DNA from: Rhodocyclaceae bacterium | Lineage (GTDB): Bacteria > Pseudomonadota > Gammaproteobacteria > Burkholderiales > Rhodocyclaceae | DNA: 64,000 bases | Direction: 5' to 3' | NCBI GenBank assembly: GCA_013791905.1 | Contig: VMSX01000006.1 | Coordinates: forward strand, 62,001-126,000 | Part shown: piece after piece, positions 23,211 to 48,355 of the stretch | Numbering within the stretch: position 1 is the first letter of the stretch | How the letters are laid out: each line of letters opens with the position of its first letter | Program-made: the position numbers and the translations under genes | The notes under the pieces: model-generated | The model's database searches: none | The model's input: only the letters and a program-made list of their open reading frames with translations | What the model was told of the DNA's origin: nothing

Positions 23211-23224
23211 TCTTACCAATCTCT

Positions 23225-26297: not shown

Positions 26298-26945
26298 TTA
26301 GCGAATCGTCTCAATATTCGTGTTTTCCAGTTCCGCCAGTGCCATGCCATTCACGTCGGCATAGCGGTAATGGCGGATCGTATGGTCGCGTTGTAGATAT
26401 TTACCTTCGGCATCCAAATACGGGCTCGGGTCTGGATGATTGCTCAGCACATATTTCGTAATATCCATTTTGCTGTGCTTGGCGGTGTAGGCATCCAGGG
26501 TCGCGTGCAGCGCCCTGACCCAATCGACGCTGGCCTTTAATTGATCCGGCACGTCGTGCGGAATGCTTTCGGATTTGAACTCCAGGCAATACACATGCAG
26601 CTTGGTCTTGCGCAGATTGAACACGATGAAATCGCAGCGCTTCGACCAGGGCTTGGCGTTGTCATCGAGGAAGTGAAACAAGGGCACTGTTGAACCATTC
26701 TTCTTGGTGTCCAGCTTGATGACCAAGACTTCTCCGGTCGTTTGCAGACTGACCTTGTATTCAATGGGCTTGTTGCCACTCTGACCGAACACCTTTTCCT
26801 TCAGCAGAACTTCGCCCGCATTGGCCTGCGGTTCGCCATAATGGTTGGTATTCAAGTAGGACTTCAGGCAGTTGAAGTATCCCTGAGCGTTGAGGGCCAC
26901 TTGTCTTGGTTCCCCGTTCAAGTAGCCGCGCTTAAGGGGTGACAA
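26298..26945 (-). CDS. Unrecognised PD-(D/E)XK-like protein between hsdS and hsdR
   Basis: 215 residues, start overlapping the hsdS end by 28 bases. A nuclease-like pattern is visible: KRCDFIVFN (Asp near 105), then YCLEFKSESI (E-x-K near 120), then DQLKASVDW, a helix often seen after the ExK motif in this fold. It is not a standard subunit of type I systems. It could be a regulator, an accessory nuclease or an inhibitor module. Its place inside the operon makes a defence link likely; the biochemical call is tentative. Confidence 0.55.
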   Translation of the reverse strand: MSPLKRGYLNGEPRQVALNAQGYFNCLKSYLNTNHYGEPQANAGEVLLKEKVFGQSGNKPIEYKVSLQTTGEVLVIKLDTKKNGSTVPLFHFLDDNAKPWSKRCDFIVFNLRKTKLHVYCLEFKSESIPHDVPDQLKASVDWVRALHATLDAYTAKHSKMDITKYVLSNHPDPSPYLDAEGKYLQRDHTIRHYRYADVNGMALAELENTNIETIR

Positions 26946-28225
26946 AAACCGCGCACGTCGATCTTGCCGGTAACTGTATTTGTGATGAGTGCCGACCTGT
27001 ATTCGGTCAAACGGTCAAGCACCTGTTGCACCTTGCTTGCCTGCTGGTCTATCGCATGTGTGACATTATCAAGATGCGAGACAATTACCTCCTGCTCATC
27101 TTCAGGCGGAAGTGCGATTTCAAAGTCGCCCAAGGTCTGGGTGGTAAGTTGATTGATGGTCGATGTCAGGAATCGACCTGACTGGAACTTGAACAATGTG
27201 GAGTTGAGCACGTAATAGAGAAAGCGAGCATGTCGAGACCGTAAGACAGTCATAAATGCGCCAAATGTTTGTCCGGCCACTTCCTCTGTCAGTAGCGCAC
27301 ATTTGCCGATCAATGCGCGACTCCCATTTCGCGAGCAAATAAGAATGTCGTCGGGTTTCGTCAGTATTTTTTGAGGAATGTCACAACTGACGTAGACGCA
27401 GTCAGTTAGATCAAGCCCGCCGTTCTGCACATTTGAGGATCGAAGAACAAGCGTTCCTCCATCGCTAACAACGTCATCCGGCGAGTAAGTCAGACCGAGA
27501 TGCAGACTGCCCAGGAATTTGATTCGGGTTGTCTTCCATGATTCAGGAATCTCCCCCAACCACTCCACCCCTGACTCCTTCATTGGCACCGATGGATCAA
27601 GCCCCTTGGTTACGGCGTGGCTGATGAGGGCGGTGCGATTCTCGGCCAGCTTTTCCAGCAAGATTTTATTCTTGGCGATCAGGGCATCGATTTGCTCGGT
27701 TTTGAAGTCGAGGAAACGGGCGATGGCTTGCTGTTCCGTCACATCGGGCAACAGAACCGGGAGATTTCCAATGAAATCCCAACTGGCCCGCGGCATTTTG
27801 CTTCCGTATGTCGAAGAGTCAACGATATTGATGAAATCACGGGAAAGCATGTAGTACTTCAGAAACTCGGCGTGTAGCTTCTCGCTGCCTCGTACAACCA
27901 GAGCTTCACTCGAAATCAGTCCATCTTGCTGGGCTAGATGAACCTTCGCCAAATATGGCCGTAACTTTCCGAACAGAACGTCACCTGCCAGAAACGATGA
28001 TGCCAGCCCTTCGCTGTTTACTATCTCACCGTCATTTCTTCTCCCTGTCCATGATTCGATATGCTCAAGCCCGAGGTAAGGGAGCGATGATTCCTCGACG
28101 CTGACCTTGCTGTTAATCAAGTCAGAAGTGAACTTGAGCCGCTTGACGCTCCAGTGACTTGGAATCTCACCGAGCCAAGGTGAGCCTGAGTTTTTGTAAG
28201 CCCCATAGGCGGTAGGCTTCATCAA
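26918..28225 (-). CDS. hsdS: Type I restriction-modification specificity subunit S
   Basis: 435 residues with two target-recognition domains, each followed by a conserved coiled-coil spacer (IARFLDFKTEQIDALIAKNKILLEKLAENR near 165-195 and VSHLDNVTHAIDQQASKVQQVLDRLTEYR near 375-405). Both halves begin with the SPWLGEIPSHW / VEWLGEIPESW signature. It starts at an ATGA overlap with hsdM. The two variable domains set a bipartite recognition sequence that cannot be read from the protein. Confidence 0.95.
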   Translation of the reverse strand: MMKPTAYGAYKNSGSPWLGEIPSHWSVKRLKFTSDLINSKVSVEESSLPYLGLEHIESWTGRRNDGEIVNSEGLASSFLAGDVLFGKLRPYLAKVHLAQQDGLISSEALVVRGSEKLHAEFLKYYMLSRDFINIVDSSTYGSKMPRASWDFIGNLPVLLPDVTEQQAIARFLDFKTEQIDALIAKNKILLEKLAENRTALISHAVTKGLDPSVPMKESGVEWLGEIPESWKTTRIKFLGSLHLGLTYSPDDVVSDGGTLVLRSSNVQNGGLDLTDCVYVSCDIPQKILTKPDDILICSRNGSRALIGKCALLTEEVAGQTFGAFMTVLRSRHARFLYYVLNSTLFKFQSGRFLTSTINQLTTQTLGDFEIALPPEDEQEVIVSHLDNVTHAIDQQASKVQQVLDRLTEYRSALITNTVTGKIDVRGFCHPLSAAT

Positions 28226-30441
28226 ACCACCTCGCTCAGCATCGCTGCGATGTCCTTCTCAAGCTGGCCGATTTCCTTGGCAATCACGTCCAGCGGACGC
28301 GGCGGTTGATACACGTAGAAATGCCGCGTCAGCGGAATTTCATAGCCCACCTTGGTCTTGCTGTGGTCAATCCAGGCATCCTTGACGTGCGGCAGTACCT
28401 CGACCTTCAAGTATTCCTCGCAGTGCTCCTTGACCAGCGCCAGCAGTTTGTCGTGGTCAGTCTCGTTGTCGTAACCCAGCGGCAGGGGCAAGGCGATGTT
28501 CTTGGGGAGTGCGACGATTTCGGTATCGCGTAGGTCGGCATCCGGCTCAGGGTTGCCTTTGGCATCGCGGCAGATTTCGGCCTTGGGGTCGCGCTCCGAC
28601 AGGGCCGCCAGAATGGCTTTTCTGACCGGCGCGGGGAGCTTGAGGCTGGCCTTCTTCATGGCTGTATCGAGCACGGCTTCAAAGTCCGGCCGATTGCGAT
28701 AGAGCGTTTCGCCGCCGGGCTTCTGCAAGACGGCCTTGATGACTGTCTGCATCTTCTCCCCTTCGGCGATCTCCGCGCGGTATGCCGCGTCGTCCTTGCG
28801 CTTTTTGCTGCTGGCGAGATTGGCGAAGGCGCTTTGCTCGTCCAGACGGGCGATACGCTCGGCGCTGGCTTGAAAGTTCAGCCGTAGCGGGCGCTCTACG
28901 GTGATCTTCAGGTAACCAAATTCGCGGTTGTCGAAGACCTTGCTGCATATGCGCTGCTCGGGCTTGCCATCGACTAGCACTTCGCTTTCCGCATCGTGGT
29001 CGTGCCCAGCATAAAGGCGGACCAACTCCTTGATGTGATCGTCGGATAATTCGTTGCGCTTGTTGCCTAAGCTCTTGTCCATTTTCTTGAAGTGACGGGT
29101 GCCGTCGATCAGTTGCACCTTGCCATGGCGGTGTTCAGGCTTCTTGTTGGTGACGATCCAGACATAGGTATAGATGCCGGTGTTGTAGAACATCTGATCC
29201 GGCAGGGCGACCACGGCATCAAGCATGTCGCGCTCGATGATCCACCGGCGGATGTTCGATTCGCCGCTACCCGCATCGCCTGTGAACAAGGGCGAGCCGT
29301 TGAAGACGATAGCGATCTTGGAGCCGTCGCCTTTCATCTTGGGCGGTTTGTGCATCTTGGAAATCATGTGCTGCAGGAAAAGCAACGAGCCGTCGTTGAT
29401 ACGCGGTAGCCCGGCGCCAAACCGACCGTTGAAGCCTTGGCTTTCGTATTCCTCACGGACGAAATCCTCTTCCGGCTTCCACTCGACGCCAAATGGTGGG
29501 TTGGCCAGCATGTAGTGGAATTTCTTCTCTGGGTGGCCATCATTGGGGACGAAGCCATTGGTCTTGTTCTTAGCGTCCTTGATGCCCAGCGTGTCGCCGT
29601 AGATCAGGTTGTTGATCGGCTCGTCCTTGATCAACAGATCGGAACAGCAGATGGCGTAGGACTCGGGGTTGTATTCCTGGCCGAACAGCTCGATGTGGGC
29701 GTCCGGATTGAGACCGGTGACGACGCCATCGCCGCAGATAAATTTCTCGGATTCGGAGAGCATGCCGCCGGTGCCTGCCGTCGGGTCATAGACGCTACGA
29801 TAGATGCCCTTCTCGTAGATGCCGTCCTCACCGGTAAAGAGTAGTTGGACCATCAGGCGAATAACTTCGCGCGGGGTGAAGTGGTCCCCAGCCTCTTCAT
29901 TGGCCTGTTCGTTGAACTTGCGCACCAGCTCTTCGAATAGGTAGCCCATCTGCAAATTGGTCAGACGCATGGGGGACAGATCAATATCCGGCGAACAGAA
30001 TTCCTTGACGATCAGGAACAGCCGGTTGGCTTCGTCGAGCTTGGCGATTTCGGCTTCAAATTCGAACTTGTCGAAGATGTCACGGGCGCGCGGCGAGAAG
30101 CCCTGGATATAGGCAATTAGGTTGCCGGCGATATTCGGTGCATCGCCAAGCAGCTTCTCAAACGTGAAACCGCTGGTGTTGAACAACTCCTGCTTACGGT
30201 CGTTGGCAGCGATGCGCGAGAGCGCCTTTTCTAAAGCAGGTCCGGTGATGCCTTTGTCTTCCAGGCGCATCTTTTCGTCCAGCACCTTCTGTTTGTTTTC
30301 GGCTAGTACCAGATCGAAGCGACGCAGAACAATGAGCGGCAACATCACGCGGCGGTACTGAGGCGGACGGTAGGGGCCACGCAGCTTATTGGCGATATTC
30401 CAGATGAAGCCGACTAGGTTTTGGTGTTGTGCGTTTTGCAT
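28222..30441 (-). CDS. hsdM: Type I restriction-modification methyltransferase subunit M
   Basis: 739 residues, larger than many HsdM proteins. N-terminal HsdM helical domain (VGFIWNIANKLRGPYRPPQYRRVMLPLIVLRRFD), SAM-binding motif DPTAGTGGML (about 215) and catalytic NPPF (about 312), so an N6-adenine methyltransferase. A long C-terminal extension (about 530-739) ends in a helix that likely contacts HsdS. It starts 35 bases after the WYL regulator's stop. Confidence 0.95.
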   Translation of the reverse strand: MQNAQHQNLVGFIWNIANKLRGPYRPPQYRRVMLPLIVLRRFDLVLAENKQKVLDEKMRLEDKGITGPALEKALSRIAANDRKQELFNTSGFTFEKLLGDAPNIAGNLIAYIQGFSPRARDIFDKFEFEAEIAKLDEANRLFLIVKEFCSPDIDLSPMRLTNLQMGYLFEELVRKFNEQANEEAGDHFTPREVIRLMVQLLFTGEDGIYEKGIYRSVYDPTAGTGGMLSESEKFICGDGVVTGLNPDAHIELFGQEYNPESYAICCSDLLIKDEPINNLIYGDTLGIKDAKNKTNGFVPNDGHPEKKFHYMLANPPFGVEWKPEEDFVREEYESQGFNGRFGAGLPRINDGSLLFLQHMISKMHKPPKMKGDGSKIAIVFNGSPLFTGDAGSGESNIRRWIIERDMLDAVVALPDQMFYNTGIYTYVWIVTNKKPEHRHGKVQLIDGTRHFKKMDKSLGNKRNELSDDHIKELVRLYAGHDHDAESEVLVDGKPEQRICSKVFDNREFGYLKITVERPLRLNFQASAERIARLDEQSAFANLASSKKRKDDAAYRAEIAEGEKMQTVIKAVLQKPGGETLYRNRPDFEAVLDTAMKKASLKLPAPVRKAILAALSERDPKAEICRDAKGNPEPDADLRDTEIVALPKNIALPLPLGYDNETDHDKLLALVKEHCEEYLKVEVLPHVKDAWIDHSKTKVGYEIPLTRHFYVYQPPRPLDVIAKEIGQLEKDIAAMLSEVV

Positions 30442-35965: not shown

Positions 35966-35980
35966 GGGAGGGTGGGGGCA

Positions 35981-36010
35981 AACCTGCCAGTTCCTGACAG
36001 GTTGATTGTT
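35981..36010 (+). terminator. Probable terminator after traD operon
   Basis: Hairpin AACCTG (35981-35986) / CAGGTT (35998-36003) with an inner CAG/CTG pair, followed by GATTGTTTT, 16 bases after the DUF4400 stop. Confidence 0.55.
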
Positions 36011-36115
36011 TTACTGTACTTGCTGCAAAATCTACGTGTTGTTGCTCCACTATCAAGGTGTCGGATCAGATAAAACAACCGAACACTCCTCGCACTTTTT
36101 TCAAAGTAACCTTTT

Positions 36116-36493
36116 ATGACACCACTGGAAGCCAAGAAGGTCATAGACGCATTAGCGAATGGGATTGATCCAGAAACGGGTGAGATGCTTCCTTCGCAAA
36201 CTCCCTTCAATAATCCTTCAGTGATACGTGCGCTATTTGTGGCGGTGAAGGCGCTTGAGAGTGCGGCTAAGCGCGTGGAGCGAGACGCGTCATTACCAGG
36301 AAATGCGGGGCGTTCTTGGAACGAGAGAGAAGACAAAGCACTCTTGGAGCATTTTGATGCGGGTACTTCCATCAAGGAGATTGCTGGAAAGCATGCCAGG
36401 ACGGAGGGAGCCATCGCGGCCAGACTTGTTCGGCTGGGACGAATAAAGGATCGATCCGAGGCATATCCCAGCATGCCAGCAGTTACCGGGTAA
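36116..36493 (+). CDS. Small DNA-binding-like protein
   Basis: 125 residues. The C-terminal half (AGRSWNEREDKALLEHFDAGTSIKEIAGKHARTEGAIAARLVRLGRI) reads as a Myb/SANT-like helix-turn-helix: acidic ED, then an HTH with RTEGAIAARL. The N-terminal half contains DPETGEMLP and a helix ALFVAVKALESAAKRV. Similar small proteins occur near helicase genes; the large helicase gene begins 65 bases downstream. A regulator or cofactor of that helicase is possible. Confidence 0.55.
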   Translation: MTPLEAKKVIDALANGIDPETGEMLPSQTPFNNPSVIRALFVAVKALESAAKRVERDASLPGNAGRSWNEREDKALLEHFDAGTSIKEIAGKHARTEGAIAARLVRLGRIKDRSEAYPSMPAVTG

Positions 36494-36521
36494 AAGACGC
36501 ACGTATTAGCACTACAGGTGT

Positions 36522-36536
36522 TCCTGTTTAACAGGA
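36522..36536 (+). promoter_or_regulatory. Palindrome just upstream of the helicase gene
   Basis: Perfect 7-1-7 palindrome TCCTGTT-T-AACAGGA, 22 bases before the helicase start codon. No ribosome site is seen before that ATG. A likely repressor site for the helicase gene; the HTH protein encoded just upstream is a candidate binder. Confidence 0.5.
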
Positions 36537-36558
36537 CCTCCGGTAACCTTGCCGGGTT

Positions 36559-39500
36559 ATGACGGAAACACAGGCAAAAGCCCGGGCAAAATGTCTCTGC
36601 CTTGATATTGAAACTGCCCGACAGGATCGAACGATCCTGCGGGAGGTCGGTGCTTTCCGGCCCGATACCGATGTCCGTGCCCGTATCCCGGGCAAGGCGA
36701 GGAATCTCGTCTCCCAGCTCAATGAACTGACACAGGGTGCGGCCTTCGTCCTCGGTCACAACGTCATTGCGTTCGACCAGCCCGCGCTGGCCGTGTTGCA
36801 CCCCGATCTGGCCCTGCATCAACTGCCGCTGGTCGATACCTTGGAACTCTCGCCGGTCGCATTCCCGCAGAACCCCTATCACCGGCTGGTCAAGGACTAC
36901 AAGCTCTGCACGACCACGCGCAATGACCCCGTTCGCGACGCCGAACTGGCCTATGAGTTGTTCCTCGATCAGGGCGAAGCATTGCAGCAGCGTGTCGAGG
37001 AACATCCCGACGAGGCGCTATGCCTGCATTACCTGCTCGCCCCGGAAAACGGCAAGGGGGTGGCGAACTTCTTCGCGACCCTGCGCCGAGCATTGCGCCC
37101 CAGCTTGCCAGAGGCTCAAGCAGCCTGGATGCGAACGACCCATGGCAAAGTGTGCGTGACCGCCCAACAGAGCGTGAGGGATACATATCTCCCCAACCCG
37201 GATTGGCATAAGCCGATTGCCTATGCACTCGCCTGGCTGCGGGTCGCCGGGGGTAATTCGGTTTTGCCGCCCTGGGTGAGTTTTAGCTACCCAAAGACAC
37301 GTGATGTCATCACCGCCCTGCGGGATGTGCCATGTTCCGACCCGCAATGTGCCTGGTGCAAGGAGCAACACGATCTGCTGACGGTTTTGCCGAGATACTT
37401 TCCCGGCATTACCCAGTTTCGTTCGACGCCGACGACAGCCGATGGCCGTTCGCTGCAGCAGACCATCGTCGAGAACGGCTTTGCCGGCAAGCCGACACTG
37501 GCTATTCTGCCCACCGGCGGTGGCAAGTCGCTGTGCTTTCAGTTGCCGGCTTTGGCTAGGTATTACCGCAACGGCAGCCTGACCGTCATCGTCTCGCCGC
37601 TGCAGTCGCTGATGAAGGATCAGGTCGATAACCTGGAGAAGCGCGGCATCACCTGCGCCGGTTATCTGAACAGCTTGTTGAACCCGATGGAACGGCGGGT
37701 CATGCTCGACAAGCTGCGATTGGGCGACCTTGGTTTGATCTTTGTGGCACCTGAACAGTTTCGCAGTACGGCCTTCGCGAATGCCCTGATGCATCGGGAG
37801 ATCGGTGCCTGGGTGTTCGATGAGGCGCACTGCCTGTCCAAGTGGGGACACGACTTCCGGCCTGACTACCTGTATGTGTCGCGCTTCATCAAGGCACGCC
37901 AGAAAGATGCACCTTCGCCGATCTTCTGCTTCACGGCAACGGCCAAACCCGATGTGGTCGAGGATATTCGCAACCACTTCACCAAGCGCCTCGGGGTCAG
38001 CCTTGACTTGCTTGCTGGCGGAGTTCGCCGCGACAACCTGGCCTATGAGGTTCGGGCGGTTACCCCGCAGGCCAAGTATCCCGAAGTCCTCCGGCTGTTG
38101 CAGGAAGCCCTGCGCGAGGAAGGCGGTGCCATTGTCTTCTGTGCCCGCCAGAAGACGGTCGAAGAACTGGCGGCTTTCCTGAAGGATGCCGGCCTAGATT
38201 GTGGCTACTTCCATGGCGGAATGCTGCCGACTGAGAAACGCAGCGTTCAGGAGGCTTTCCTATCGGGCGAGCGGCGAGTTATTGCGGCAACGAACGCCTT
38301 CGGTATGGGTGTGGACAAGGCCGACGTTCGTCTGGTGATCCACCTCGATACTCCCGGTTCGCTGGAGAACTATCTGCAGGAGGCGGGGCGGGCAGGGCGG
38401 GATCAGGACCCAGCCCGCTGTTTGCTGCTCTATGACGACGCCGACCTCGATGTCCAGTTCCGCCTGTTGAAAAATGCGCGCCTGACGCAGCATGACATTC
38501 ATGCCATCCTGAAGGCCCTGCGCCAGATCGAGCGCAAGGATCGCAGCGAAGGCTCCGTCGTGGTGACCAGCGGTGAGATCCTGCTCGAAATCCCGGAGAA
38601 ACTGCGCATCGATCCCGATGCCTCAGATGCCGATACCAAGGTCAGGATCGCCGTGGCATGGCTCGAAGAAGCAAGGCTGCTTGAGCGCCATGAGAACCAC
38701 ACCCGTGTCTTCCCCGGCAGCCTGCAGGTGGGCAGCCTAGAAGAGGCGGAAGCGATTCTGCGCAAGAAGCTCGGCGGCAGCACCGATATTGCGCCATATC
38801 TGGCGATCCTGTCAGCGCTGATCCGGGCTGAAGATGACGAAGGGCTGTCGACTGACGAACTGATGCTGGCCACCGGGCTGGATTCGCACAAGCTGCAATC
38901 GATGCTGCGCGATCTGGATCGACTGAAACTGCTCTCCAACGATACCGAGATCGGGGTGACGCTTTATAAAGACCCTGATACCGTCGAACGGCTGGAGTCG
39001 CTGTGCAAACTTGAAGATGCACTGTTGGCCAACTTGCGCGAAGCGGCTCCTGATGCCGATCAGGAAAACTGGCAGATCCTGGATGTCCGCCGCCTGTGTG
39101 ACACCTTGCGGCGCGATACCCAGGTTGATTTCGACCCGGAGAAGCTTTCTCGGCTTCTCAAGTCGTTTGCCGAGGCCTTCGGCGGAGGTCCTGGGCAGCG
39201 CGGTTTCTTTGCCCTGCGACCGGCCGGCATGGACAACCGATTTATCAAGCTGCTGCGCAGTTGGCAGGACATCGAGACGATCCGCCAACGGCGCATGAAA
39301 CTGGCCAAGGCGCTCGTTACTCAATTTCTGACGAGGCGCCATGGCAACAATCTTCTCGTTACCTGTAGGCAAGGAGACCTTGAGGCCAGCCTGCAGACCG
39401 ACATTACCCTGCAGGATCTGGAAATTCGCGACTGGAACATTGCCCTGGCGGCCAGCCTGATCTATCTCGATACCAACGAGGTGCTGCATCTGTCACGCGG

Positions 39501-41694
39501 CAAGGCGGTGTTCCGTTCGGCGATGAGCATCGCCCTGAACGCCGAAGCCAGGCGACGCCAGTTCAAGAAGTCCGACTACGCCGAACTGGACTTGCATTAC
39601 AAGGACAAGATCGTCCAGGTGCATGTGATGGCAGAGTATGCCCGGCTGGCCTTGGGCAAGGTCAAGGCAGCGATGGCGTTCATCGAAGACTACTTCAGTA
39701 TGGATCGGAATGACTTCGTGAAACGCTACTTTGCCGGTCGAAAGGATGTGCTGGAGATGGCGACCACGGAGGCGTCGCACCGCCGCATCCTGACCGATCT
39801 GCAAAACCCTGAGCAACAAGCCATTGTTGCGACGTCCATCGAAGGCAACCATCTGGTGCTGGCTGGGCCGGGGTCTGGCAAGACCCGCGTCATTGTTCAT
39901 CGTATTGCCTGGTTGTTGCGCGAATGCATGGTTCTGCCGGACGAGATCATGGTCCTAGCCTACAACCGTTCAGCGGCGGTCGAAATCCGGCGCCGTCTTT
40001 GGTCACTCGTTGGGCCGGATGCTGGGGGCGTGGTCGTCCAGACTATTCATGGGCTGGCGATGCGGCTTACCGGAACCAGTTTTGCTGTGGCAGCCGAGCG
40101 TGGAGAAACGCCTAAATTCGATACGGTTATCAAAGCGGCGACGGAACGATTGCGAAAAGCCGAACAAGGAGACGAGATTGGGCCATCGGTACAACGCGAC
40201 CGGGTACTGTCAGGTCTGCGTTTCCTGCTGGTCGATGAGTATCAGGACATCAACGGCGATCACTACGAACTGATTAGCGCCCTGGCGGGACGGACGCTCA
40301 ACAGCGAGGAAGACAAGCTTTCCCTGATGGTGGTCGGCGACGACGACCAGAACATCTATGCCTTCGATGGCGCTAGTGTGCGCTATATCCGGCAGTTCGA
40401 GACTGACTACAAGGCACGTCGTTATCATCTCATCGAAAACTACCGTTCGACGACCCAGATCATAGACTGTGCCAACCAGTTGATTGCGCGTGCTCGCGAG
40501 CGCATGAAGGCAGATCAGGCAATCCGCATCAACCACGCGCGGCGCGATCAGCCCGCAGGTGGCGAATATGCCAGCATCGACCCGGTGGCCACCGGGCGCG
40601 TGCATATTCTCGAAGTGTCAGAGAATTCCAACATGGGCATTCAAATGGCGCTGGCAGAGCTGGAACGCCTCAATGGATTGACTGGTTCTGCAGCCCAATG
40701 GGGACGTTTCGCCGTCATCGCCCGTCGCTGGGACGACCTGGAACCCCTGGCGGCCTTGTGTCGATTGCGGGGGATTCCTGTCCGGCTTATGCGGGACAAC
40801 CATACCCCAGACTTGCATGCCACGCGTGAGGGGGATCAGTTGTTGTCCTTGCTACGTGAAGAGTTTCGGCAGGCACGACGGTCACGGGTATTGCTACGTA
40901 GTGGCACATTGTCGCGATGGTTCAGGCGCCGCTACGGAGTTACGGTCGATAGCCTGATCGAACACCCCCAACGGGCAGCATTGGCACAGTTCATCGTCGA
41001 ATGCGAGTCGGTTGCGCCGGGAAGCGAGCAGGTCGTCCAGAACCTGATCGAGTCAATCTACGAATATGGCTCCGGCGGTAAGAATGCCTCGGGTGACCGG
41101 CCCAATGGTCCGCTGGTTTTGATGACGGCGCATCGCGCCAAGGGTCTGGAATTCGATCATGTGCTGATTCTCGACGGGGGCGGATGGTCTGATGCCAATG
41201 ACGAAGAGCGACGCCTGTTCTACGTGGCCATGACCCGGGCCCGCAAGACGCTCACCGTCAGTGAAAGCAGCGGCGGCCGTCATGCCTTCGTGCGCGATCT
41301 CGGGAAGTTGCCTTTGCGTTCCCAGCCGAGCGGCTTTGAAGTCGATCCCAGACTTGCGCATCGAACCTGGATTGCCGACCCGGAGCAGATCGTCTTGTCC
41401 TGGCCGGGGTACTTTTCTGCGACAGCGCCGATCCACAAAGCCATTGCGGCACTTGAGGTCGGTAGCCCGCTGGTGCTGCGTCCGCGATCGGATGGCAAGC
41501 CCGGATGGGAAGTGGCGGATTCGAACGGGGTCGCGGTGACGCGGATGGCGCAGAAATTTTCACCTCCGTCAGGCAAGATCATTGAAGTGCGGGTGGTGGC
41601 GATTCTGGCGAGAAAGGCGAAGGAGGGCGAGGCTGAAAGTCTCAGGTGCAAGAGCTGGGAGCTGGTGTTGCCGGAGGTTGAGTATTTGCTGTGA
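36559..41694 (+). CDS. Fusion protein: DEDD exonuclease, RecQ helicase and UvrD/Rep helicase
   Basis: 1711 residues in one open frame. (1) Residues about 12-150: a DEDD 3'-5' exonuclease with LDIETA (D16, E18), GHNVIAFDQ and RNDPVRDAELAY. (2) About 290-640: RecQ SF2 helicase with PTGGGKSLCFQLP (about 315), DEAHC (about 420) and EAGRAGRDQDPARC (about 607). (3) About 1080-1600: SF1 UvrD/Rep helicase with AGPGSGKTRVI (about 1100), DEYQDIN (1225), GDDDQNIYAFDG (1259), AHRAKGLEFDHV (1522) and VAMTRARK (1553). Two motors of the same 3'-5' polarity class plus a nuclease suggest DNA repair, recombination or defence by resection. Substrate is not known. Confidence 0.92.
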   Translation: MTETQAKARAKCLCLDIETARQDRTILREVGAFRPDTDVRARIPGKARNLVSQLNELTQGAAFVLGHNVIAFDQPALAVLHPDLALHQLPLVDTLELSPVAFPQNPYHRLVKDYKLCTTTRNDPVRDAELAYELFLDQGEALQQRVEEHPDEALCLHYLLAPENGKGVANFFATLRRALRPSLPEAQAAWMRTTHGKVCVTAQQSVRDTYLPNPDWHKPIAYALAWLRVAGGNSVLPPWVSFSYPKTRDVITALRDVPCSDPQCAWCKEQHDLLTVLPRYFPGITQFRSTPTTADGRSLQQTIVENGFAGKPTLAILPTGGGKSLCFQLPALARYYRNGSLTVIVSPLQSLMKDQVDNLEKRGITCAGYLNSLLNPMERRVMLDKLRLGDLGLIFVAPEQFRSTAFANALMHREIGAWVFDEAHCLSKWGHDFRPDYLYVSRFIKARQKDAPSPIFCFTATAKPDVVEDIRNHFTKRLGVSLDLLAGGVRRDNLAYEVRAVTPQAKYPEVLRLLQEALREEGGAIVFCARQKTVEELAAFLKDAGLDCGYFHGGMLPTEKRSVQEAFLSGERRVIAATNAFGMGVDKADVRLVIHLDTPGSLENYLQEAGRAGRDQDPARCLLLYDDADLDVQFRLLKNARLTQHDIHAILKALRQIERKDRSEGSVVVTSGEILLEIPEKLRIDPDASDADTKVRIAVAWLEEARLLERHENHTRVFPGSLQVGSLEEAEAILRKKLGGSTDIAPYLAILSALIRAEDDEGLSTDELMLATGLDSHKLQSMLRDLDRLKLLSNDTEIGVTLYKDPDTVERLESLCKLEDALLANLREAAPDADQENWQILDVRRLCDTLRRDTQVDFDPEKLSRLLKSFAEAFGGGPGQRGFFALRPAGMDNRFIKLLRSWQDIETIRQRRMKLAKALVTQFLTRRHGNNLLVTCRQGDLEASLQTDITLQDLEIRDWNIALAASLIYLDTNEVLHLSRGKAVFRSAMSIALNAEARRRQFKKSDYAELDLHYKDKIVQVHVMAEYARLALGKVKAAMAFIEDYFSMDRNDFVKRYFAGRKDVLEMATTEASHRRILTDLQNPEQQAIVATSIEGNHLVLAGPGSGKTRVIVHRIAWLLRECMVLPDEIMVLAYNRSAAVEIRRRLWSLVGPDAGGVVVQTIHGLAMRLTGTSFAVAAERGETPKFDTVIKAATERLRKAEQGDEIGPSVQRDRVLSGLRFLLVDEYQDINGDHYELISALAGRTLNSEEDKLSLMVVGDDDQNIYAFDGASVRYIRQFETDYKARRYHLIENYRSTTQIIDCANQLIARARERMKADQAIRINHARRDQPAGGEYASIDPVATGRVHILEVSENSNMGIQMALAELERLNGLTGSAAQWGRFAVIARRWDDLEPLAALCRLRGIPVRLMRDNHTPDLHATREGDQLLSLLREEFRQARRSRVLLRSGTLSRWFRRRYGVTVDSLIEHPQRAALAQFIVECESVAPGSEQVVQNLIESIYEYGSGGKNASGDRPNGPLVLMTAHRAKGLEFDHVLILDGGGWSDANDEERRLFYVAMTRARKTLTVSESSGGRHAFVRDLGKLPLRSQPSGFEVDPRLAHRTWIADPEQIVLSWPGYFSATAPIHKAIAALEVGSPLVLRPRSDGKPGWEVADSNGVAVTRMAQKFSPPSGKIIEVRVVAILARKAKEGEAESLRCKSWELVLPEVEYLL

Positions 41695-41900
41695 TTTCGA
41701 GACAACATCTCCCGTTCGGAGGTAGGGAAACGGATCGATGAATGAATTGCGCCAACATATGCGCCAACTTGCTAAACCTGCGAAAAAGTGCCTTCGACCC
41801 GTAGCGGACTTACCAATCCTATAAAGCAGACATTCACTGTTTCACCCGATACCTTAGGCTCTTGGGTGGGTTATCGCTTCGGTGTAGCCGGATGCCAAGC

Positions 41901-44411
41901 TCACTGGCCAGCGGCTGCCAACTCTATAAACATCGCCATTGACGTCTTCACCACTCTCTTCGTGCGGCCATACGTCAATAGTAGCCTTTGTACAGTGGCT
42001 CGCTCAAATCCCTGCTCCGGGATCGACAGTTCGACGCGTCCTTGAACCGGAGGGTACGAAGCATCCGTTGAGGCGATAGCTTTCCATTCTCGACACATAC
42101 GGTGTTCGGCTGTATCGAATTCTTTTACTAACTCCTTGATGATTCTCTTGGGAACCGGCTTGCCACTTTTCGCGCCGATAGAAGCTGCTATCTTTCGCCA
42201 CGTAGCCCTCATGCCACCGAAGTGGCCGGTCAACCGGTGCTCGAAGTCGGTAACCGGATTGCCACTCAGCATGAAGTGCGCCGACCTTACTTTTTCAACT
42301 AACGGAATCCATTCAGGAGGTGTCGTACCGTGCCTGGCACTTGTATGGGCGTGAAGATGCTGCCAGTGAACGCGAGTGTCTGTATAGATCGTTGCGCCCA
42401 TCAACTTGGCGAGGAACAGTGACACTTCAAGATTAAAGCCCTTAATTGTTTGTAATTGCGCGCCTTCTTCTCCCGGCGGCAGTTCTTGCAATAGAGCGAG
42501 TGGGTCGAGTTTATTCTGCTCCTTCATGTACAACATTATTTGCTCTAACTCTTCCGTGCTCATTTCGGGCGAGGTACGTTGGATAAGCCCGCGCAACGCA
42601 TCTGATGGCATGCCTAGTGTTGCCCTTTTCAGTTCGTCCTTCTGAAGGTAGCGGAATCGCTCCATATCCTTGTCGTCAATTTCAACCTTTCCTACCCGTT
42701 CCTCCGCCATGTCCATCACGAGGTGCATTAGTCCCCCAAAGTCTGCCGGGTCGGGCAGCAGATGAACCAGCCCAGCATCGATATATGGCTCGAGCATCAT
42801 CAGCAGGTAAACGTTCTTGATTGTTTGGTTCTTGTACTGGGCGGGCTTGTGGGTTGGACTGTAGTTCGGTTTGACATTGCCAGCGTTGATGAATGGATTG
42901 GGAATTACTATTTGGTCGAAGTAACTCAACCAACCTGTAACGTTGAGATTAATTGTTCTCGGATCAACGATCCCAAGATATAGGCCCCTAAATGTTCCTG
43001 CAGCCGGGCGCGGCAACAACGCAACCAAGTCAGTATCACGCGGCCAAAGGCTTTCATATGTCTCGTGAATACGTTTAACCTTGTCGTCACTCAACTCTCT
43101 GCGAATATCCTCCCAGTTCTTGCCACTATCGAACCCCAGAATGTCTTGTACCGCACGGCAGAACATAAGGTTTCTTTCGCGAATACCGTAAACTTCCCAA
43201 GAGGGCCGCTCAACCAGAGGAATCTTCTCGCAGCATGTCCGATACCTTTGTCCGCTGCCACAACCGCAGGGTGCATTTCGATCTGGCGGCCCAGGGCGCC
43301 GTTTCTTCGACAAGTACTTGTGTGAGTTAGTCGTTCGTCCGAACGGATCCTGATAGTGCGTTGAGCCGTCCTTGTACCCAACGTAAATCTCACCACCGAA
43401 ATGCCAAAGTTCGTTGGATGGTGGTAAGAGAATCTTTCCAAGGTGCTCCCATGGTTCTACCGACACCTTGTCTGGTTCAAGCCAAGCCTTGTCACTAGCG
43501 GCAACGTACTTCCGTGCCCTCGCCTTTAGAATGCGATTGATCCCCGTAACCTCTTGGTTTGTCAGCTTGCGAGTTCGGATGAAAGCGTCCGTGCGTGTTA
43601 GGGTCGGGTAGCCGCCATAGCGCGCATGTGTTCGCGGTGACCTCACATCTACATTGCCAGGTTCCTTTGCATACTCAAAATTTGTCAAGATCAGACAATG
43701 GTTCGCATCCAGTGGGAACACTGTTTGCGAGCCCTTAAGTTCAGTTGATGGGTCCTCTGGATAAATGCATTCAGAAGATCCAGGTGGATAGGCTGGGTTA
43801 TATATAGTTACCGGATGGTCGGTAACTATGAACTTAATGTTTGACTCTTCCGCAGATACGATTTCCCGAACACTCTCAACCCACATCGTGCAGTGCATCT
43901 GGCGAAGTGCCTGCATCTCGATCATCAGGTCGAGTTGTGTCAACAGCGGATACTTGCTCTTGATCCAGTCGAGTCCCTTTGGCGTTCGTACTTTTTGCGC
44001 ATCCAAGTACGAAAAGAATTGCTGAAACGACTCGTGGATGCCTGCCATATCACCACTTGCGAACGCGCGTACGGCGATCGCGCCAAGCCTATCTATAGTG
44101 CCAAATAGATAACGCTCAACCTCATCGTTAATGACATTACCAAATCTTGTCGTATACAAGTCCTCCGCCACGAAGCAGTTGGCGGGCACACGATTGAGGC
44201 GAACATTTTGTAGTTGTTTGGAGTGGCCGTTTGGAAGATCGATCCGCGGTGGATCAAGGTCTAATAGTTGAAGAGACTTGCTCGGCGCTACGATAAAACC
44301 CTTCTGGTACCAAATCGGCACATAGTGATTCTGGCGCGTTATTTGTGGATCTGACTTAGATATGGCAGACCCCTCACTACCTGTAGGATCTCTCTTGGTT
44401 GAATCAGCCAC
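41901..44411 (-). CDS. DUF4238 protein with central SEC-C zinc motif
   Basis: 836 residues, GTG start. The N terminus is a DUF4238 domain, recognised by QNHYVPIWYQKGF (27-39) and a later TDHPVTIYNP. A central SEC-C zinc motif, RNAPCGCGSGQRYRTCC, lies near 380-396. The C-terminal 430 residues are unrecognised and contain several conserved-looking HxH positions (WQHLHAHTSARHG). DUF4238 proteins are common in defence islands and mobile elements, but no activity is established to my knowledge. It is the last gene in the cassette-like cluster. Confidence 0.7.
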   Translation of the reverse strand: MADSTKRDPTGSEGSAISKSDPQITRQNHYVPIWYQKGFIVAPSKSLQLLDLDPPRIDLPNGHSKQLQNVRLNRVPANCFVAEDLYTTRFGNVINDEVERYLFGTIDRLGAIAVRAFASGDMAGIHESFQQFFSYLDAQKVRTPKGLDWIKSKYPLLTQLDLMIEMQALRQMHCTMWVESVREIVSAEESNIKFIVTDHPVTIYNPAYPPGSSECIYPEDPSTELKGSQTVFPLDANHCLILTNFEYAKEPGNVDVRSPRTHARYGGYPTLTRTDAFIRTRKLTNQEVTGINRILKARARKYVAASDKAWLEPDKVSVEPWEHLGKILLPPSNELWHFGGEIYVGYKDGSTHYQDPFGRTTNSHKYLSKKRRPGPPDRNAPCGCGSGQRYRTCCEKIPLVERPSWEVYGIRERNLMFCRAVQDILGFDSGKNWEDIRRELSDDKVKRIHETYESLWPRDTDLVALLPRPAAGTFRGLYLGIVDPRTINLNVTGWLSYFDQIVIPNPFINAGNVKPNYSPTHKPAQYKNQTIKNVYLLMMLEPYIDAGLVHLLPDPADFGGLMHLVMDMAEERVGKVEIDDKDMERFRYLQKDELKRATLGMPSDALRGLIQRTSPEMSTEELEQIMLYMKEQNKLDPLALLQELPPGEEGAQLQTIKGFNLEVSLFLAKLMGATIYTDTRVHWQHLHAHTSARHGTTPPEWIPLVEKVRSAHFMLSGNPVTDFEHRLTGHFGGMRATWRKIAASIGAKSGKPVPKRIIKELVKEFDTAEHRMCREWKAIASTDASYPPVQGRVELSIPEQGFERATVQRLLLTYGRTKRVVKTSMAMFIELAAAGQ

Positions 44412-44413
44412 TC

Positions 44414-44476
44414 AGCGCAGAACCTTCATCGTGCGATTGAATGTGGAATGTTTGAATTCACCGTCGTTGCGCGGTT
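44414..44476 (-). repeat. Possible degenerate attC site between DUF4238 and HEPN genes
   Basis: Read on the minus strand, GCGCAAC just after the HEPN stop faces GTTCTGCGC just before the DUF4238 start, with an inner imperfect pair GTGAATT / AATCGCAC. Gene spacing matches the next cassette boundary, but the core does not fit GTTRRRY, so this is weak. Confidence 0.3.
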
Positions 44477-45013
44477 TCATTGCGCGGCATCCGTTGGAAT
44501 GATCGGTTGGGCCTGACTTTCTAGGGTGCGAACCATCATTCCCGCTCCAGTGAGCTGTCCAAGGAGAAGGGAAATATCTGATCTGAACCGCTCGGCTATC
44601 GCGTCCCAGTTGCTTGGATCGATTTTCGGGTCATTTAGCAACGGTGCAAGTTCTTTGCGAAGAACCAGAAAGCGGTTTATACGATCTTTTAGTTTTGGGC
44701 TATCAAGATTGTGTGCCAGATCATTTCGTACTGTATTCAGTGCGTCGAGCAACGGCCAGAGGCCTGGCCACACAACGTGGTCTGACAAAGCTCGCGCGAG
44801 TCGTGTTTTAACCTGAAAACGAATCTCAACATCCGCTAGGTGTTCTGGATTCTTGCAATAAAAGCGAATCAGGTCGTCTAGCGCCTCCTCAGCAAGCAAG
44901 TGCCCTTTTAATGCGATTAGAGTGAGGTCGCTTCCACTCGGCAAATGCTTTCGGACTCGCTCAATGCGAACCTCGGCCTCAGGGTCTATTTGAAGGGTGA
45001 TTGATTCCGCCAT
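44477..45013 (-). CDS. HEPN-like protein
   Basis: 178 residues, helical throughout. NTVRNDLAHN (near 113) is an Rx4H motif with an Asn after the Arg, the hallmark of HEPN RNases. An acidic/aromatic helix precedes it (LLAEEALDDLIRFYCKNPEHL). HEPN proteins cleave RNA in abortive infection and toxin-antitoxin systems. No antitoxin partner is evident. Start codon is 10 bases from an attC-like core site, the layout of an integron cassette. Confidence 0.6.
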   Translation of the reverse strand: MAESITLQIDPEAEVRIERVRKHLPSGSDLTLIALKGHLLAEEALDDLIRFYCKNPEHLADVEIRFQVKTRLARALSDHVVWPGLWPLLDALNTVRNDLAHNLDSPKLKDRINRFLVLRKELAPLLNDPKIDPSNWDAIAERFRSDISLLLGQLTGAGMMVRTLESQAQPIIPTDAAQ

Positions 45014-45023
45014 GACTGGTCTG

Positions 45024-45092
45024 GCCCAACGTTGAGGTCATCGGCGCTGCGCGGATTTATCGCGCAGCGTCCAGTAGACCGCAGGGTTATGA
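45024..45092 (-). repeat. attC-like recombination site of an integron cassette
   Basis: On the minus strand: inverse core ending AAC (TCATAAC, overlapping the FRG stop), a strong 9-base central stem CGCTGCGCG / CGCGCAGCG, an outer pair GGTC / GACC with an extrahelical base, and a perfect right core GTTGGGC (45024-45030). Total 69 bases. The right core fits GTTRRRY; the left core is degenerate. This architecture is that of attC sites. Confidence 0.65.
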
Positions 45093-45908
45093 TTCGTACT
45101 TCTTCGCAATGTATTTCGCGGAGTTCTCAATGTACGGAAAGACAGTGCTCTCATTAATATTAAGCCCGTCGAGTTCACGAATGATTTTCACCTTTTCGCT
45201 TGCCTTAATCGATATGCGATCAATTGAGATATCCGCATTGCCAGCCTCGGGTAAGGTTGCATCGAGGCCGAATAGCAAGAAGGCACCAGATTGCGAAGAG
45301 ATTCGATTGTTGGTCATTCTCCCCTTGACACAAACTATGCGAGTTAAGTCTGGGGGGGAAATCTTTCCAAGGAAGTACGGCTTCTCCTCGCGGACAAAGT
45401 GCAAGAGACGGGTGATCGGGAGTGATTCATTGAACGCAATTTGATCAAGCGTGAAGTCAATGGCGTCCTTGTCGTTCTTCGGAAGACGGGCGAGGTTGGC
45501 AATGCAACTCGCGGTGTCGCTGTCGAAGAACTTTATCTCGTCTCGCTGAATTTTCAGAATGATTACCTCACCAGTCTTGTCAGGCGACGACTTGCACGCG
45601 AAATACAATGCCATGAGTGGGTTTGACGTGATGTCGAAAAGGCGTGTTGGCATCGAATAGTGCTGCATACGGACCAGCTTTTCAAACGTAGTTGTGTCAT
45701 CACTGAAGTCCGCCGGGTTTGCGATAAGCAACTCTCGAAATAGCAAGTGCTCGGAGTTGACGTGCTGCGCAAGGCGGTACAGCGACGGCTCCAATTTGTA
45801 TTTATCACGATTTGAATGACCACGATAAAAGACGACGTCATCAGGTCCATGTGCAAGCGCGAAGACTTTGCGAATTAGACCTTCGGTGCTCGTGATTCCT
45901 TTTGACAT
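45087..45908 (-). CDS. FRG-domain protein
   Basis: 273 residues. The FRG domain is clear from VVFYRGHSNRDKYKLEPSLYR (25-45) and MQHYSMPTRLFDITSNP followed by MALYFACKS (about 100-130). FRG proteins of this size occur in phage-defence and mobile loci; their biochemical activity is not firmly known to me. It starts 10 bases from a GTTAGGT core site (45919-45925) and ends in an attC-like site, so it forms a complete cassette of about 0.9 kb. Confidence 0.85.
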   Translation of the reverse strand: MSKGITSTEGLIRKVFALAHGPDDVVFYRGHSNRDKYKLEPSLYRLAQHVNSEHLLFRELLIANPADFSDDTTTFEKLVRMQHYSMPTRLFDITSNPLMALYFACKSSPDKTGEVIILKIQRDEIKFFDSDTASCIANLARLPKNDKDAIDFTLDQIAFNESLPITRLLHFVREEKPYFLGKISPPDLTRIVCVKGRMTNNRISSQSGAFLLFGLDATLPEAGNADISIDRISIKASEKVKIIRELDGLNINESTVFPYIENSAKYIAKKYES

Positions 45909-46375
45909 GGCTATCGAAACCTAACAGTTATTCAAGAGACCCATGGGCCCGGACATTTATAAATAAAATTAGTATTCATCGTACTTAGGGTACGGTTCTG
46001 TCATAAGTAATATCGCCGCTGCATCTCGATAACATCATGCAACACAAAACTGGCGACTTTCGGATTATGCCCATGTTTTATTTCTGAGACTAGTCAATGT
46101 TGGCTTATGGTCTGATCATGATTGGGCAGCCTCTGGCCGATAGGTTAAGTTCACCAGCGACTACTTTGTAGGGGGATGTTTCGGCAAGGGGAGTCGATAA
46201 TATTTGGATGGGGACCACAGCCTGAATGTCTCTTCCCACTCTGAAGCGCTCATCCGTTGTTCCGATGTGACCGTATCTAGATAGCTTGACTGAGACACTG
46301 CAGTGACAGCAATGCTTGATGCAGCAATGCGAGAGATTCTGATAGCCCGCATTGCAGATCGATGTTAGGCCTTTG
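45909..46375. other. Intergenic region with two recombination core-like sites
   Basis: ACCTAAC at 45919-45925 is GTTAGGT on the minus strand, just before the FRG gene. A second sequence, GTTAGGC on the plus strand at about 46364, lies just after the hipA stop. No gene is convincing between them; the AT-rich part near 45960-46010 may hold a promoter for the cassette genes. Confidence 0.45.
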
Positions 46376-47656
46376 TTATCGAATGAGTCCGGCTACAACC
46401 TCCATCTCCACATGCTCGAAGGCCGGCGCAAAATCCGCCAATTCTCTATGGGACAGGCCGACTTCCTTACTCAGCGCGACCTGCCGCCAATCAGTAACTG
46501 CGGCATGCACCTCGGCCAGAATGGTGAGGGCCTGGCTCTGATCGAGATAGAAGTAAGCCGCCTTGCCAAGCAGTTGCCCAATCGAATCGATCGGCCCAGT
46601 GTCCTCGCTCAGCCAGGTCTTGGACTCGCGGAGTTTGTCCGGGAATGGATTCAGGTCGAAGGCGGGCGAAAGCGCCCACTTGTCGTTGCCGACATGCAGG
46701 AATCCGAGGTTGTGCAAGTGGTCGTCGGTGTTGGTGATGAGATGGTTGAACACCAATCGCCGCCATAACTGCTGCGCATCCGCTTTGGCATCAAGACAGA
46801 CGCGGTTCATGATGTCGACAATCTCGGTGTAAGCATGCTCATCGCCACGGGAAGCCTGCAGCATAGAGGCTCCGGAAAGATACGGAATGCGTGCATTCGT
46901 GGCAGTGCGGTCAAAGCGCGAGACGATCGCCACCGGCTTGTCGGCAATCATCTCGATGCGCGATCGGGCGGCGTCAATCCTGGCGATCTGGGCCAGCTTG
47001 AGGGCCAGCACCTCACCGCGCGTCACGCTGCGGCTGTCTTCGACACTCGGAAATTTACCCAGCGCCAGCGTGCCATCGGCATCGAGTACCGTACTCTTGG
47101 GACGCATCCCGCCCAAAGAAGTGCCGTTGCCCAGCAAATACTTGAGATCCTCGCTGGATTCCTTGCTGTGCTCTACCGCTCGACAGGCCGCCATGATGCG
47201 TTCGAGTTCGATCAGCGGCGGTGTGGTGCGTGTGCCGGCAGGTGTCGTGCGCAAGTAATTGCCCTTGAGGTCGCGCAGGCGCAGCGCCCCCATGCGGCTG
47301 TAGTCATCCACAGCACACAGATAGTCCAGTTCGGTCAGCGGAGTGAGCTTGGGATCCTGCTGGCGGGCTTTGGCGTGGGCGCGCGCGATAACTCGCCGGC
47401 CCCAGGCGTCTGGTTCCGTGTCCGCAAAAGCGAAATGGAATGTCGAGTCGTCTTTTGTGGGCGCCTTGTGCACCTGATGCTGGCCGGCCAGAAGCTCGAG
47501 ATCAGGGGAGATGTTGAAGCGGTGCGGACTTTTGATCCACGCGTCCTTGTAGGCGAAGCTGGCGTACGACCGGGCGCCGTCGGCGACGTAGGTGAGGCTC
47601 CCCACAGGGAACTCAGCCGATCCGATGCATACATCGAGGGTGGTCTTGGTCGCCAT
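46376..47656 (-). CDS. hipA: HipA-family serine/threonine kinase toxin
   Basis: 426 residues from the ATG at 47656, overlapping the hipB stop as TGATG. HipA features: N-terminal subdomain (SYASFAYKDAWI), Gly-rich GTSLGGMRPKSTV activation/P-loop region, catalytic FNHLITNTDDHLHNLGF (N-x-D-H) and metal-binding SPAFDLNP. HipA kinases phosphorylate tRNA synthetases and stop growth. With hipB it should stabilise the plasmid or trigger dormancy. Confidence 0.92.
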   Translation of the reverse strand: MATKTTLDVCIGSAEFPVGSLTYVADGARSYASFAYKDAWIKSPHRFNISPDLELLAGQHQVHKAPTKDDSTFHFAFADTEPDAWGRRVIARAHAKARQQDPKLTPLTELDYLCAVDDYSRMGALRLRDLKGNYLRTTPAGTRTTPPLIELERIMAACRAVEHSKESSEDLKYLLGNGTSLGGMRPKSTVLDADGTLALGKFPSVEDSRSVTRGEVLALKLAQIARIDAARSRIEMIADKPVAIVSRFDRTATNARIPYLSGASMLQASRGDEHAYTEIVDIMNRVCLDAKADAQQLWRRLVFNHLITNTDDHLHNLGFLHVGNDKWALSPAFDLNPFPDKLRESKTWLSEDTGPIDSIGQLLGKAAYFYLDQSQALTILAEVHAAVTDWRQVALSKEVGLSHRELADFAPAFEHVEMEVVAGLIR

Positions 47657-47997
47657 CAAAGGGCTCCGCTATCTTTATGGGCCTTGGGCAGGCGTACGCG
47701 CTGGGGCAGCTTTTCATCCATCAACGCCAGCCCGATGCTGTCCTCGGAAGAGTCGAGCAGCTGCTTCAGACGCTCCAGTTCGCCGAAGACATGCAGTGCG
47801 CGCGCCAGGGTTTGCAGGGCGATGGTGGGGCTGCCTGCCTCCATGCGCCGTACGGTCATGACGGATACCCCAATACGTTCCGCCAGCATGGCCTGGGGCA
47901 TCTGCCGGCGGCGGCGCGCGAAGGAAATGTCACGGCCCAGCTTTTCCAGGGCCCGGCTGACTGGCAAGGGAAGGAGGTCTTCTTTAGTGGAGCGCAT
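47656..47997 (-). CDS. hipB: HipB-like antitoxin, XRE-type regulator
   Basis: 113 residues. An XRE helix-turn-helix lies near 27-80 (ARRRRQMPQAMLAERIGVSVMTVRRMEAGSPTIALQTLARALHVFG), with a C-terminal tail that would contact HipA (GLALMDEKLPQRVRLP). It represses its own promoter and neutralises HipA. The promoter directly upstream overlaps an inverted repeat. Confidence 0.9.
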   Translation of the reverse strand: MRSTKEDLLPLPVSRALEKLGRDISFARRRRQMPQAMLAERIGVSVMTVRRMEAGSPTIALQTLARALHVFGELERLKQLLDSSEDSIGLALMDEKLPQRVRLPKAHKDSGAL

Positions 47998-48023
47998 GGG
48001 ATCCCACAGGATGATTAGTGGTT

Positions 48024-48063
48024 CATATGTGAGCGATTATATGGTTTGTTGGTGGCTAGTCAA
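48024..48063 (-). promoter_or_regulatory. hipBA promoter with operator
   Basis: Minus-strand -35 TTGACT (48058-48063), 16 bases, and a perfect -10 TATAAT (48036-48041). An inverted repeat CATAT (48024-48028) / ATATG (48039-48043) overlaps the -10, the expected place for HipB repression. Nothing else is evident in 48064-48289. Confidence 0.65.
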
Positions 48064-48289
48064 TCGGATTGTCTTCAAAACGATCTTTTGGAGATGCTTA
48101 TGGTTTATATGGGGGCATATATGCGCTATTAAGAAAGCCAGAGCCGCATGGTGAGGCAGGATGTTTCCTGGATTACCCGAAGCAAACCCCACCGGTGTTT
48201 CGTGTGAAGTCTGGCCGATCCAGCGGGGTTCAAACTCGATCAGCTCAAGAAATTTGCAGCTTTATAAGCCTGCAATGGGGTGGATATTT

Positions 48290-48348
48290 GAAAAGCATTC
48301 GACAACGATGCTTTTAACCCGGATTTTGGCAGGCTGACTTCATAGCAT
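48290..48348 (+). promoter_or_regulatory. Repeated promoter module, copy C, before the transfer operon
   Basis: AAAAGCAT (48291-48298) / ATGCTTTT (48308-48315) with a 9-base spacer, CGGATT (48320-48325), 17 bases, and TAGCAT (48343-48348). The first transfer gene's ATG is at 48356, seven bases later, with no ribosome site between, so the mRNA is probably leaderless. Confidence 0.7.
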
Positions 48349-48355
48349 TCTGGCC

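Follow-up and report, generated by a model that had tools for sequence, protein, structure and literature searches.

A probable two-cassette CALIN with FRG and HEPN genes in the cargo site of a Rhodocyclaceae conjugative element

How did an FRG-domain gene and a HEPN-like gene, both laid out as integron cassettes, come to lie on a conjugative element with no integron integrase beside them? The question is raised by a 64,000-nt stretch from a Rhodocyclaceae bacterium (GenBank assembly GCA_013791905.1, contig VMSX01000006.1, positions 62,001 to 126,000; below, the window, which is C22:62001-126000 in our contig numbering), whose genome comprises 3.64 Mb in 30 contigs. A preliminary description of this DNA had proposed an integrase-less cassette array holding FRG, HEPN and DUF4238/SEC-C genes. 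We favour, with a probability of roughly 0.75, a narrower reading: positions 45972 to 44443 of the minus strand are a two-cassette CALIN (a cluster of attC sites lacking an integron integrase, as defined in passages of PMC9024848 and PMC12444791) in the cargo site of an MPF_F-type conjugative element, and the cassettes docked at a conserved leader in trans. The array runs in the order leader, G/TT crossover, FRG cassette, intact attC, HEPN cassette, decayed attC:

45926–45972, minus strand: conserved leader, attI-like by position; ~46 nt are conserved here, and it recurs at 10 further sites spread over 5 other genomes
45919–45925, minus strand: core GTTAGGT with the G/TT crossover, junction of leader and FRG cassette; identified from the sequence, and leader conservation ends there
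45087–45908, minus strand: FRG-domain gene, 273 aa, first cassette (Pfam FRG E 4.1e-19, 69.7 bits against a cut-off of 25; PADLOC PDC-S15 E 1.3e-107)
45024–45092, minus strand: attC of the FRG cassette, intact-looking (covariance model R1 matches its full length at 34.6 bits, with E 3.3e-6 for the 64 kb)
44477–45013, minus strand: HEPN-like gene, 178 aa, second cassette (RNxxxH motif in homologs; cassette position)
44443–44512, minus strand: decayed attC of the HEPN cassette, R' = ATTCCAC (R1 14.9 bits, E 0.16 over 64 kb and 0.013 over 5.1 kb)

attC sites, cassette layout and integrases

Candidate attC sites were collected by a box-and-fold scan of stretches from the bacterium's own genome and of 20 integrase-flanking stretches of related genomes, sampled from the 101 genomes with an integrase match. 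Forty of the 58 scanned integron sites were aligned to build the covariance model R1, in which the R and L arms are treated as pairs; the other 18 were nested, very short, long or doubtful and were excluded by eye. The pairing of the arms is supported by the alignment itself, in which 87.5% of the cells pair and covariation reaches 0.380, compared with a shuffled value of 0.148 (sd 0.014) and no more than 0.113 in slid versions. R1 took the place of scans with consensus R''/R' box patterns, which reported neither of the window's attC sites because the R'' box of the FRG site and the R' box of the HEPN site are off consensus.

Over the 64 kb, on both strands and at E ≤ 10, R1 gave two matches, both on the minus strand of the window. 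The better one is the 69-base site that had been picked out in the preliminary description, with its right core GTTGGGC (45024–45030) and a 9-bp central stem that folds as described. The training set of R1 contains no site from the window, although it does include sites of loci L025 and L027 that are 85–86% identical to the FRG attC (85% for L025:4367-4433, 86% for L027:17939-18004). In a plasmid collection the FRG attC matched 99 records. Among the 60 matches listed, 59 fall under blaOXA-2-family annotation at 86–88% identity, and the remaining one, from Serpentinimonas maccroryi, is 92% identical and carries no annotation.

The second site, with its crossover at ~44449, corresponds to the degenerate boundary that had been placed near 44414. 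The boundary is indeed degenerate; it is a decayed attC and does not lie near 44414. Its closest relative found is a 53.2-bit attC on the same contig (C22:10924-10993), which is outside the R1 training set and matches it at 83.6% over 67 nt (C22:10928-10994; blastn E 2e-14). It is also 85% identical over 61 nt to L026:11012-11072, and it has no match in the plasmid collection. The core reads AACATT, compared with AACGTT in the same-genome attC, so that the cleaved G is gone. When R1 was run unfiltered over 41.5–46.6 kb, the third-best match scored 8.4 bits. The HEPN attC might fall below the threshold of IntegronFinder. Taken together, the attC matches at both boundaries, in the expected order and orientation, and the homology of the second to an attC of the same genome, identify FRG and HEPN as two cassettes.

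The layout of the genes agrees with this assignment. The core GTTAGGT is present at 45919–45925 and, as the preliminary description had it, both genes start 10 nt past a core (GTTAGGT for FRG, GTTGGGC for HEPN) and share the minus strand with the neighbouring DUF4238 gene; the HEPN stop codon falls within the HEPN attC. In a free circular cassette the attC ends in the cassette's own left core, and R'' and left core should therefore match. The HEPN R'' (GCCCAAC) forms 7/7 pairs with its own left core, GTTGGGC, versus 3/7 with the sequence that now follows it; for the FRG R'' the corresponding values are 5/7 and 4/7.

Integron integrases were sought with TIGR02249 in the whole genome, and none over the family cut-off lies in the window or beside the array. 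The only window match (25.3 bits) falls within a DUF3701 tyrosine recombinase at 12733–14667 and is, with another of 24.7 bits, one of two on C22, both far under the cut-off. A complete integron was thus rejected, intI not being adjacent to the array. The earlier statement that no integrase is visible holds for the window and its neighbourhood and fails for the genome, which encodes two full-length integron integrases (C20:213152 and C6:538200). Cassette movement in trans would therefore be possible in this cell.

Genome-wide, R1 at E ≤ 1 listed 14 sites: seven on C6, two on C20, three on C22 (8.8–11.0 kb), one on C1, and the FRG attC; some of the C6 and C20 sites belong to the training set. 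The three C22 sites (L100:8839-10993, 47–59 bits) lie outside the window on a contig without an integrase over the cut-off and are a second integrase-less array of the same genome. On C1 (L105:6953-7995) the single attC scores 29.7 bits, and ~0.9 kb upstream on the same strand lies a stretch that weakly resembles the leader (77% over 35 nt; E 0.16).

The leader and the conjugative element

The 450 bases to the left of the FRG core were compared with 200 genomes of the order. Five genomes other than the bacterium's own matched, over the final ~30–40 bases. The aligned leader block is GTCTCTATATTAATAAATGTCCGGACCCATGGGTCTCTTGATTAACTGTTRRR. When 250 genomes were searched with the leader pattern, allowing up to 3 mismatches, 9 sites turned up, spread over 6 of the genomes; the reversed pattern, used as control, gave none. 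A 172-nt query over the six leader genomes gave 12 matches, which were reduced to 11 sites by setting aside G438 C17:775, which is one half of a copy that an insertion has interrupted. The interrupted copy lies at L187:775-888 and L160:142 (G438 C17 and C18), and the insertion looks like an insertion sequence (IS) element. The 11 sites share 35–53 nt, with conservation extending to ~172 nt in some of the other copies, and conservation ends at the G/TT crossover; outside the block the sequences are unrelated, save for two copies in one genome. Because the conserved leader stops at GTTAGGT, the left end of the array is placed more exactly.

Cassettes commonly follow the leader. R1 found an attC downstream on the same strand at E ≤ 0.1 in 8 of the 11 sites (the window, L159–L164 and L184), the matches at L162 and L184 being partial or shortened. 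L165 has a weak downstream match (E 0.43), and no downstream match was found at L166 or L185 with R1 on the same strand. The G438 C17 array encodes a 196-aa protein with the motif RNQLAH followed by a 406-aa FRG protein (Pfam E 1.3e-8), and the G438 C18 array a 240-aa DUF4145 protein with RNLAAH; the first open reading frames (ORFs) at the remaining leader sites belong to other or unrecognised kinds. None of the leader copies has an integron integrase over the cut-off next to it; in these genomes the integrases are on other contigs, ~500 kb off or absent, several of the contigs being short and their far flanks partly unseen. When the flanks of ten leader or leader-like sites (up to 5 kb either way) were searched by tblastn with both of the bacterium's own integrases, the best E was 0.30, and Pfam detected no recombinase among nine ORFs upstream of leaders. 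Short reading frames in four leader copies (7–33 aa) look meaningless. The leader and the left flank have no match in the plasmid collection, and viral contigs hold no exact match to the leader pattern.

In its placement the leader resembles an attI: it has a single core, is conserved only upstream of the crossover and has cassettes behind it. Since this placement comes without a significant likeness to attI (see below), we call it attI-like by position. It may be the attI of an integrase that has been lost or has yet to be sampled, or else a repeated element that IntI favours as a target.

The array lies on a conjugative element. MPF_F-type conjugation genes in the window encode TraD, TraK, TraB, TraC, TraH, TraG, TraV and TraF, and the best plasmid match of TraD is in pSTJ2 of Sulfuricystis multivorans (81%). 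In a genome assigned to the bacterium's own genus, TraD matches at coordinates identical to those in pSTJ2, so the host is probably a near relative of Sulfuricystis. Comparison of sizes with relatives points to a variable stretch, which also contains the gene next to the array:

35966–48355, no strand assigned: variable cargo stretch of the conjugative element, from DUF4400 to a lytic transglycosylase, containing the array
41901–44411, minus strand: DUF4238 gene with a sub-threshold SEC-C match (Pfam), 836 aa, probably neighbouring cargo

The interval from DUF4400 to the lytic transglycosylase measures ~12.4 kb in the window versus 1.6–1.7 kb in pSTJ2 and two relatives, syntenic elements that lack the extra cargo. 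This cargo includes the array, a RecQ-UvrD gene, the DUF4238 gene, and a HipA gene plus a helix-turn-helix gene. The RecQ-UvrD fusion (36559–41694, 1711 aa) has relatives in the order at 39–53% identity; in the nine stretches examined, none of the other element proteins searched for was found near them. Relatives of TraD led to syntenic elements carrying different content. Elsewhere on the same element (20974–30441), type I restriction-modification genes accompany a cyclase of the CD-NTase type (PADLOC E 1.8e-155), which makes the element rich in defence-type genes. A second TraD gene in the same genome (G000:C19:22598-24382, 68% identity) suggests another related conjugative element. An Rfam scan of the window gave no match at gathering thresholds, and the tRNA search found none.

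Relatives and predicted functions of the cassette genes

The preliminary description had proposed looking for the same genes as cassettes elsewhere, and such cases were found. Of the two results that it had named as refuting the array, the lack of an attC model hit and FRG homologs never flanked by such sites, neither was obtained. Scanned with the FRG protein, named genomes yielded 32 loci, six of which have the gene beside an attC. An R1 match overlaps the 3' end of the gene in five (L040, L043, L044, L045 and L046, with E 0.028, 0.15, 0.22, 0.0053 and 0.15, respectively), and in these a GTTAAAT core begins 32–35 nt ahead of the end of the start codon. At the sixth, L051 of Methyloversatilis, a 51.8-bit attC lies immediately 5' of the gene, and an attC-like sequence was also noted 3' of it, by eye only. 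The window protein matches the PDC-S15/FRG family over residues 3–272, whereas the six attC-flanked relatives measure 435–448 aa and have an N-terminal part that is absent from it. This extension spans ~165 residues and begins MYNLLVT. The FRG alignment covers 22 of the 32 loci; L061 was excluded for an internal stop and 9 more were left out.

HEPN relatives occur in 3 of 274 genomes of the class, including the bacterium's own, and in 4 records of the plasmid collection. The relative in V. campbellii stands directly after a VCR-type site, which R1 scores at 25.4 bits, and has a further site behind it, identified by eye; the relative at L017 stands directly after a 21.8-bit attC. The V. campbellii site was also the only R1 match at E ≤ 1 over 23 further loci, which comprised 10 conjugative-element stretches, 5 RecQ-UvrD, 4 DUF4238 and 1 plasmid FRG locus and 3 HEPN relatives. 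Scanning viral contigs for HEPN turned up 3 pattern matches, none of them a relative. NZ_CP141089.1 (4.9 Mb) and NZ_CP050465.1 (2.1 Mb), which are labelled as plasmids and look chromosome-like, each hold one HEPN relative.

The structure model of the FRG protein has a mean predicted local distance difference test score (pLDDT) of 76.7 and a best structural alignment of Z 6.4. It aligns mostly with chains that we take to be of ADP-ribosyltransferase type, which is consistent with that fold and not decisive; Foldseek with the model gave no match at E ≤ 0.001. HEPN proteins are often RNases. The RNxxxH motif of the HEPN-like protein is retained in 6/6 homologs; its hidden Markov model matches are under the cut-offs and its single-sequence fold has a pLDDT of 52.9. 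Sequence searches of the PDB gave no convincing match. According to one review (PMC9503650), Frg domains belong to the ADP-ribosyltransferase superfamily and may be effectors that consume NAD; defence cassettes in integrons are established, as covered in another review (PMC12409362). Judged by their families, the FRG protein is probably an NAD-consuming effector with an ADP-ribosyltransferase fold and the HEPN protein probably an RNase-like effector. By analogy with the published precedent, both would probably act as small stand-alone anti-phage genes.

Origin of the array

Most likely, an integron integrase acting in trans, either one of the genome's two or that of a previous host, used the leader as an attI-like docking site and inserted the cassettes there; conjugation would then move the cassettes between hosts. 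With the cleaved G of its attC lost, the HEPN cassette would probably no longer be precisely excisable, and the FRG cassette might remain mobilisable by recombination between leader and attC. Several observations weigh against this account. By R1 alone the HEPN attC is weak over the 64 kb and so, taken singly, are four of the five matches at the 3' ends of FRG relatives (E 0.028 to 0.22); 26 of the 32 FRG loci have no adjacent attC match, nor do the HEPN relatives L016, L107 and L108. The leader's likeness to the attI string of the order's complete integrons is not significant: of 2217 random cores, 149 score as high as the leader consensus and 881 as high as the window copy. A simple promoter-like scan of 44300–46400 found 0 instances, compared with 2.6 expected in shuffles. 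The empty site was not recovered either through RecQ-UvrD relatives, whose nine stretches lack the other element proteins searched for, or through TraD relatives, whose elements carry other content.

Two alternatives accept the cassettes and differ on their arrival. The cassettes may have entered a generic secondary site of the attG type, in which case the leader would be a repeated noncoding element that is a good target by chance or none at all. Integration at attG sites is published (PMC12444791), and both the lack of a significant likeness to the attI of complete integrons and the lack of an integrase over the cut-off next to leader copies fit. Against this, attG sites are described as scattered widely, and the same 35–53 nt ending at G/TT recur at 11 sites, most of them with a downstream attC. 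We hold this to be unlikely. Much the same degree of doubt attaches to a chromosomal integron fragment of leader, FRG and HEPN that lost its integrase and was then moved as a block, whether by a transposon or through homologous recombination. Integrons are frequent in the order (101 of 250 genomes have an integrase match at E ≤ 1e-60), the genome's own C22 has an array of three attC sites and no integrase that passes the cut-off, and decay of the second attC is what an old array would show. Yet no chromosomal copy of the FRG-HEPN pair exists among the results, the HEPN search of the own genome returning the window locus only, and no transposon ends were recognised, though no systematic search for them was made.

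The extent and reality of the array can be judged more firmly. That the DUF4238/SEC-C gene is a third cassette, its attC decayed past recognition, would accord with its strand and with its start ~31 nt past the second attC. R1 found no attC at its 3' end (41.5–41.9 kb) even with filters off, and none at four DUF4238 relatives (L119–L122), and the gene is large, whereas integron defence genes are described as size-reduced in the review PMC12409362. A third cassette is thus very improbable; of the array first proposed, the FRG and HEPN portions are well supported, and the DUF4238 gene is probably ordinary neighbouring cargo. As for chance palindromes, the second hairpin considered alone within the window could be one, but the first scores far too well, with plasmid sites of Serpentinimonas and the blaOXA-2 family as close relatives, and the second has a homologous attC elsewhere in the genome. 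That explanation is in effect refuted.

Docking of two cassettes at the leader in trans can be set against known systems. A CALIN on a conjugative plasmid has already been reported in X. campestris, according to a passage of PMC12444791. The window array resembles such clusters in its two attC sites of the same orientation, its ORFs in cassette layout and the lack of an integrase beside it, and differs in being headed by a leader common to 10 other sites, in having one decayed attC and in its cargo of FRG and HEPN. The CALIN of the Shewanella prophage M16-3, which has its own attI (PMC9892861), is likewise an integrase-less array on a mobile element that begins at an attI-type site; unlike the window's leader, which has neither significant attI likeness nor an adjacent integrase, its attI matches that of a known Shewanella integron. 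The anti-phage cassettes of chromosomal and mobile integrons covered in the review PMC12409362 are also small, stand-alone, defence-type genes in attC cassettes, whereas the present array lies on a conjugative element without an integrase and is known from sequence alone. No paper joining the FRG domain and integrons was found among the open-licence literature; among the listed open-licence papers on attI sites standing alone, the relevant one concerns off-target integron activity. The two-cassette CALIN itself is a known kind, and the leader family is what sets it apart.

Integrons are usually described with a single attI beside intI. A tentative extension of our reading, to which we give clearly less than even odds, is that mini-integrons free of an integrase form a dispersed family in Betaproteobacteria, marked by the leader as a conserved attI-like docking site and filled with a few cassettes by integrases acting in trans. 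There are up to four leader copies per genome and one on a conjugative element, and three leader arrays contain HEPN- or FRG-type genes (FRG and HEPN in the window, G438 C17 and G438 C18). If this is true, a cell could keep several small defence arrays off its main integron and pass one of them on by conjugation. The array as we read it explains the FRG and HEPN genes of the element as captured cassettes, and the leader provides an exact sequence for testing attI activity in trans. A docking site that is conserved, present in several copies and free of an integrase, that heads small cassette arrays and that in one case is borne by a conjugative element would show a route by which defence-type cassettes leave chromosomal integrons and travel.

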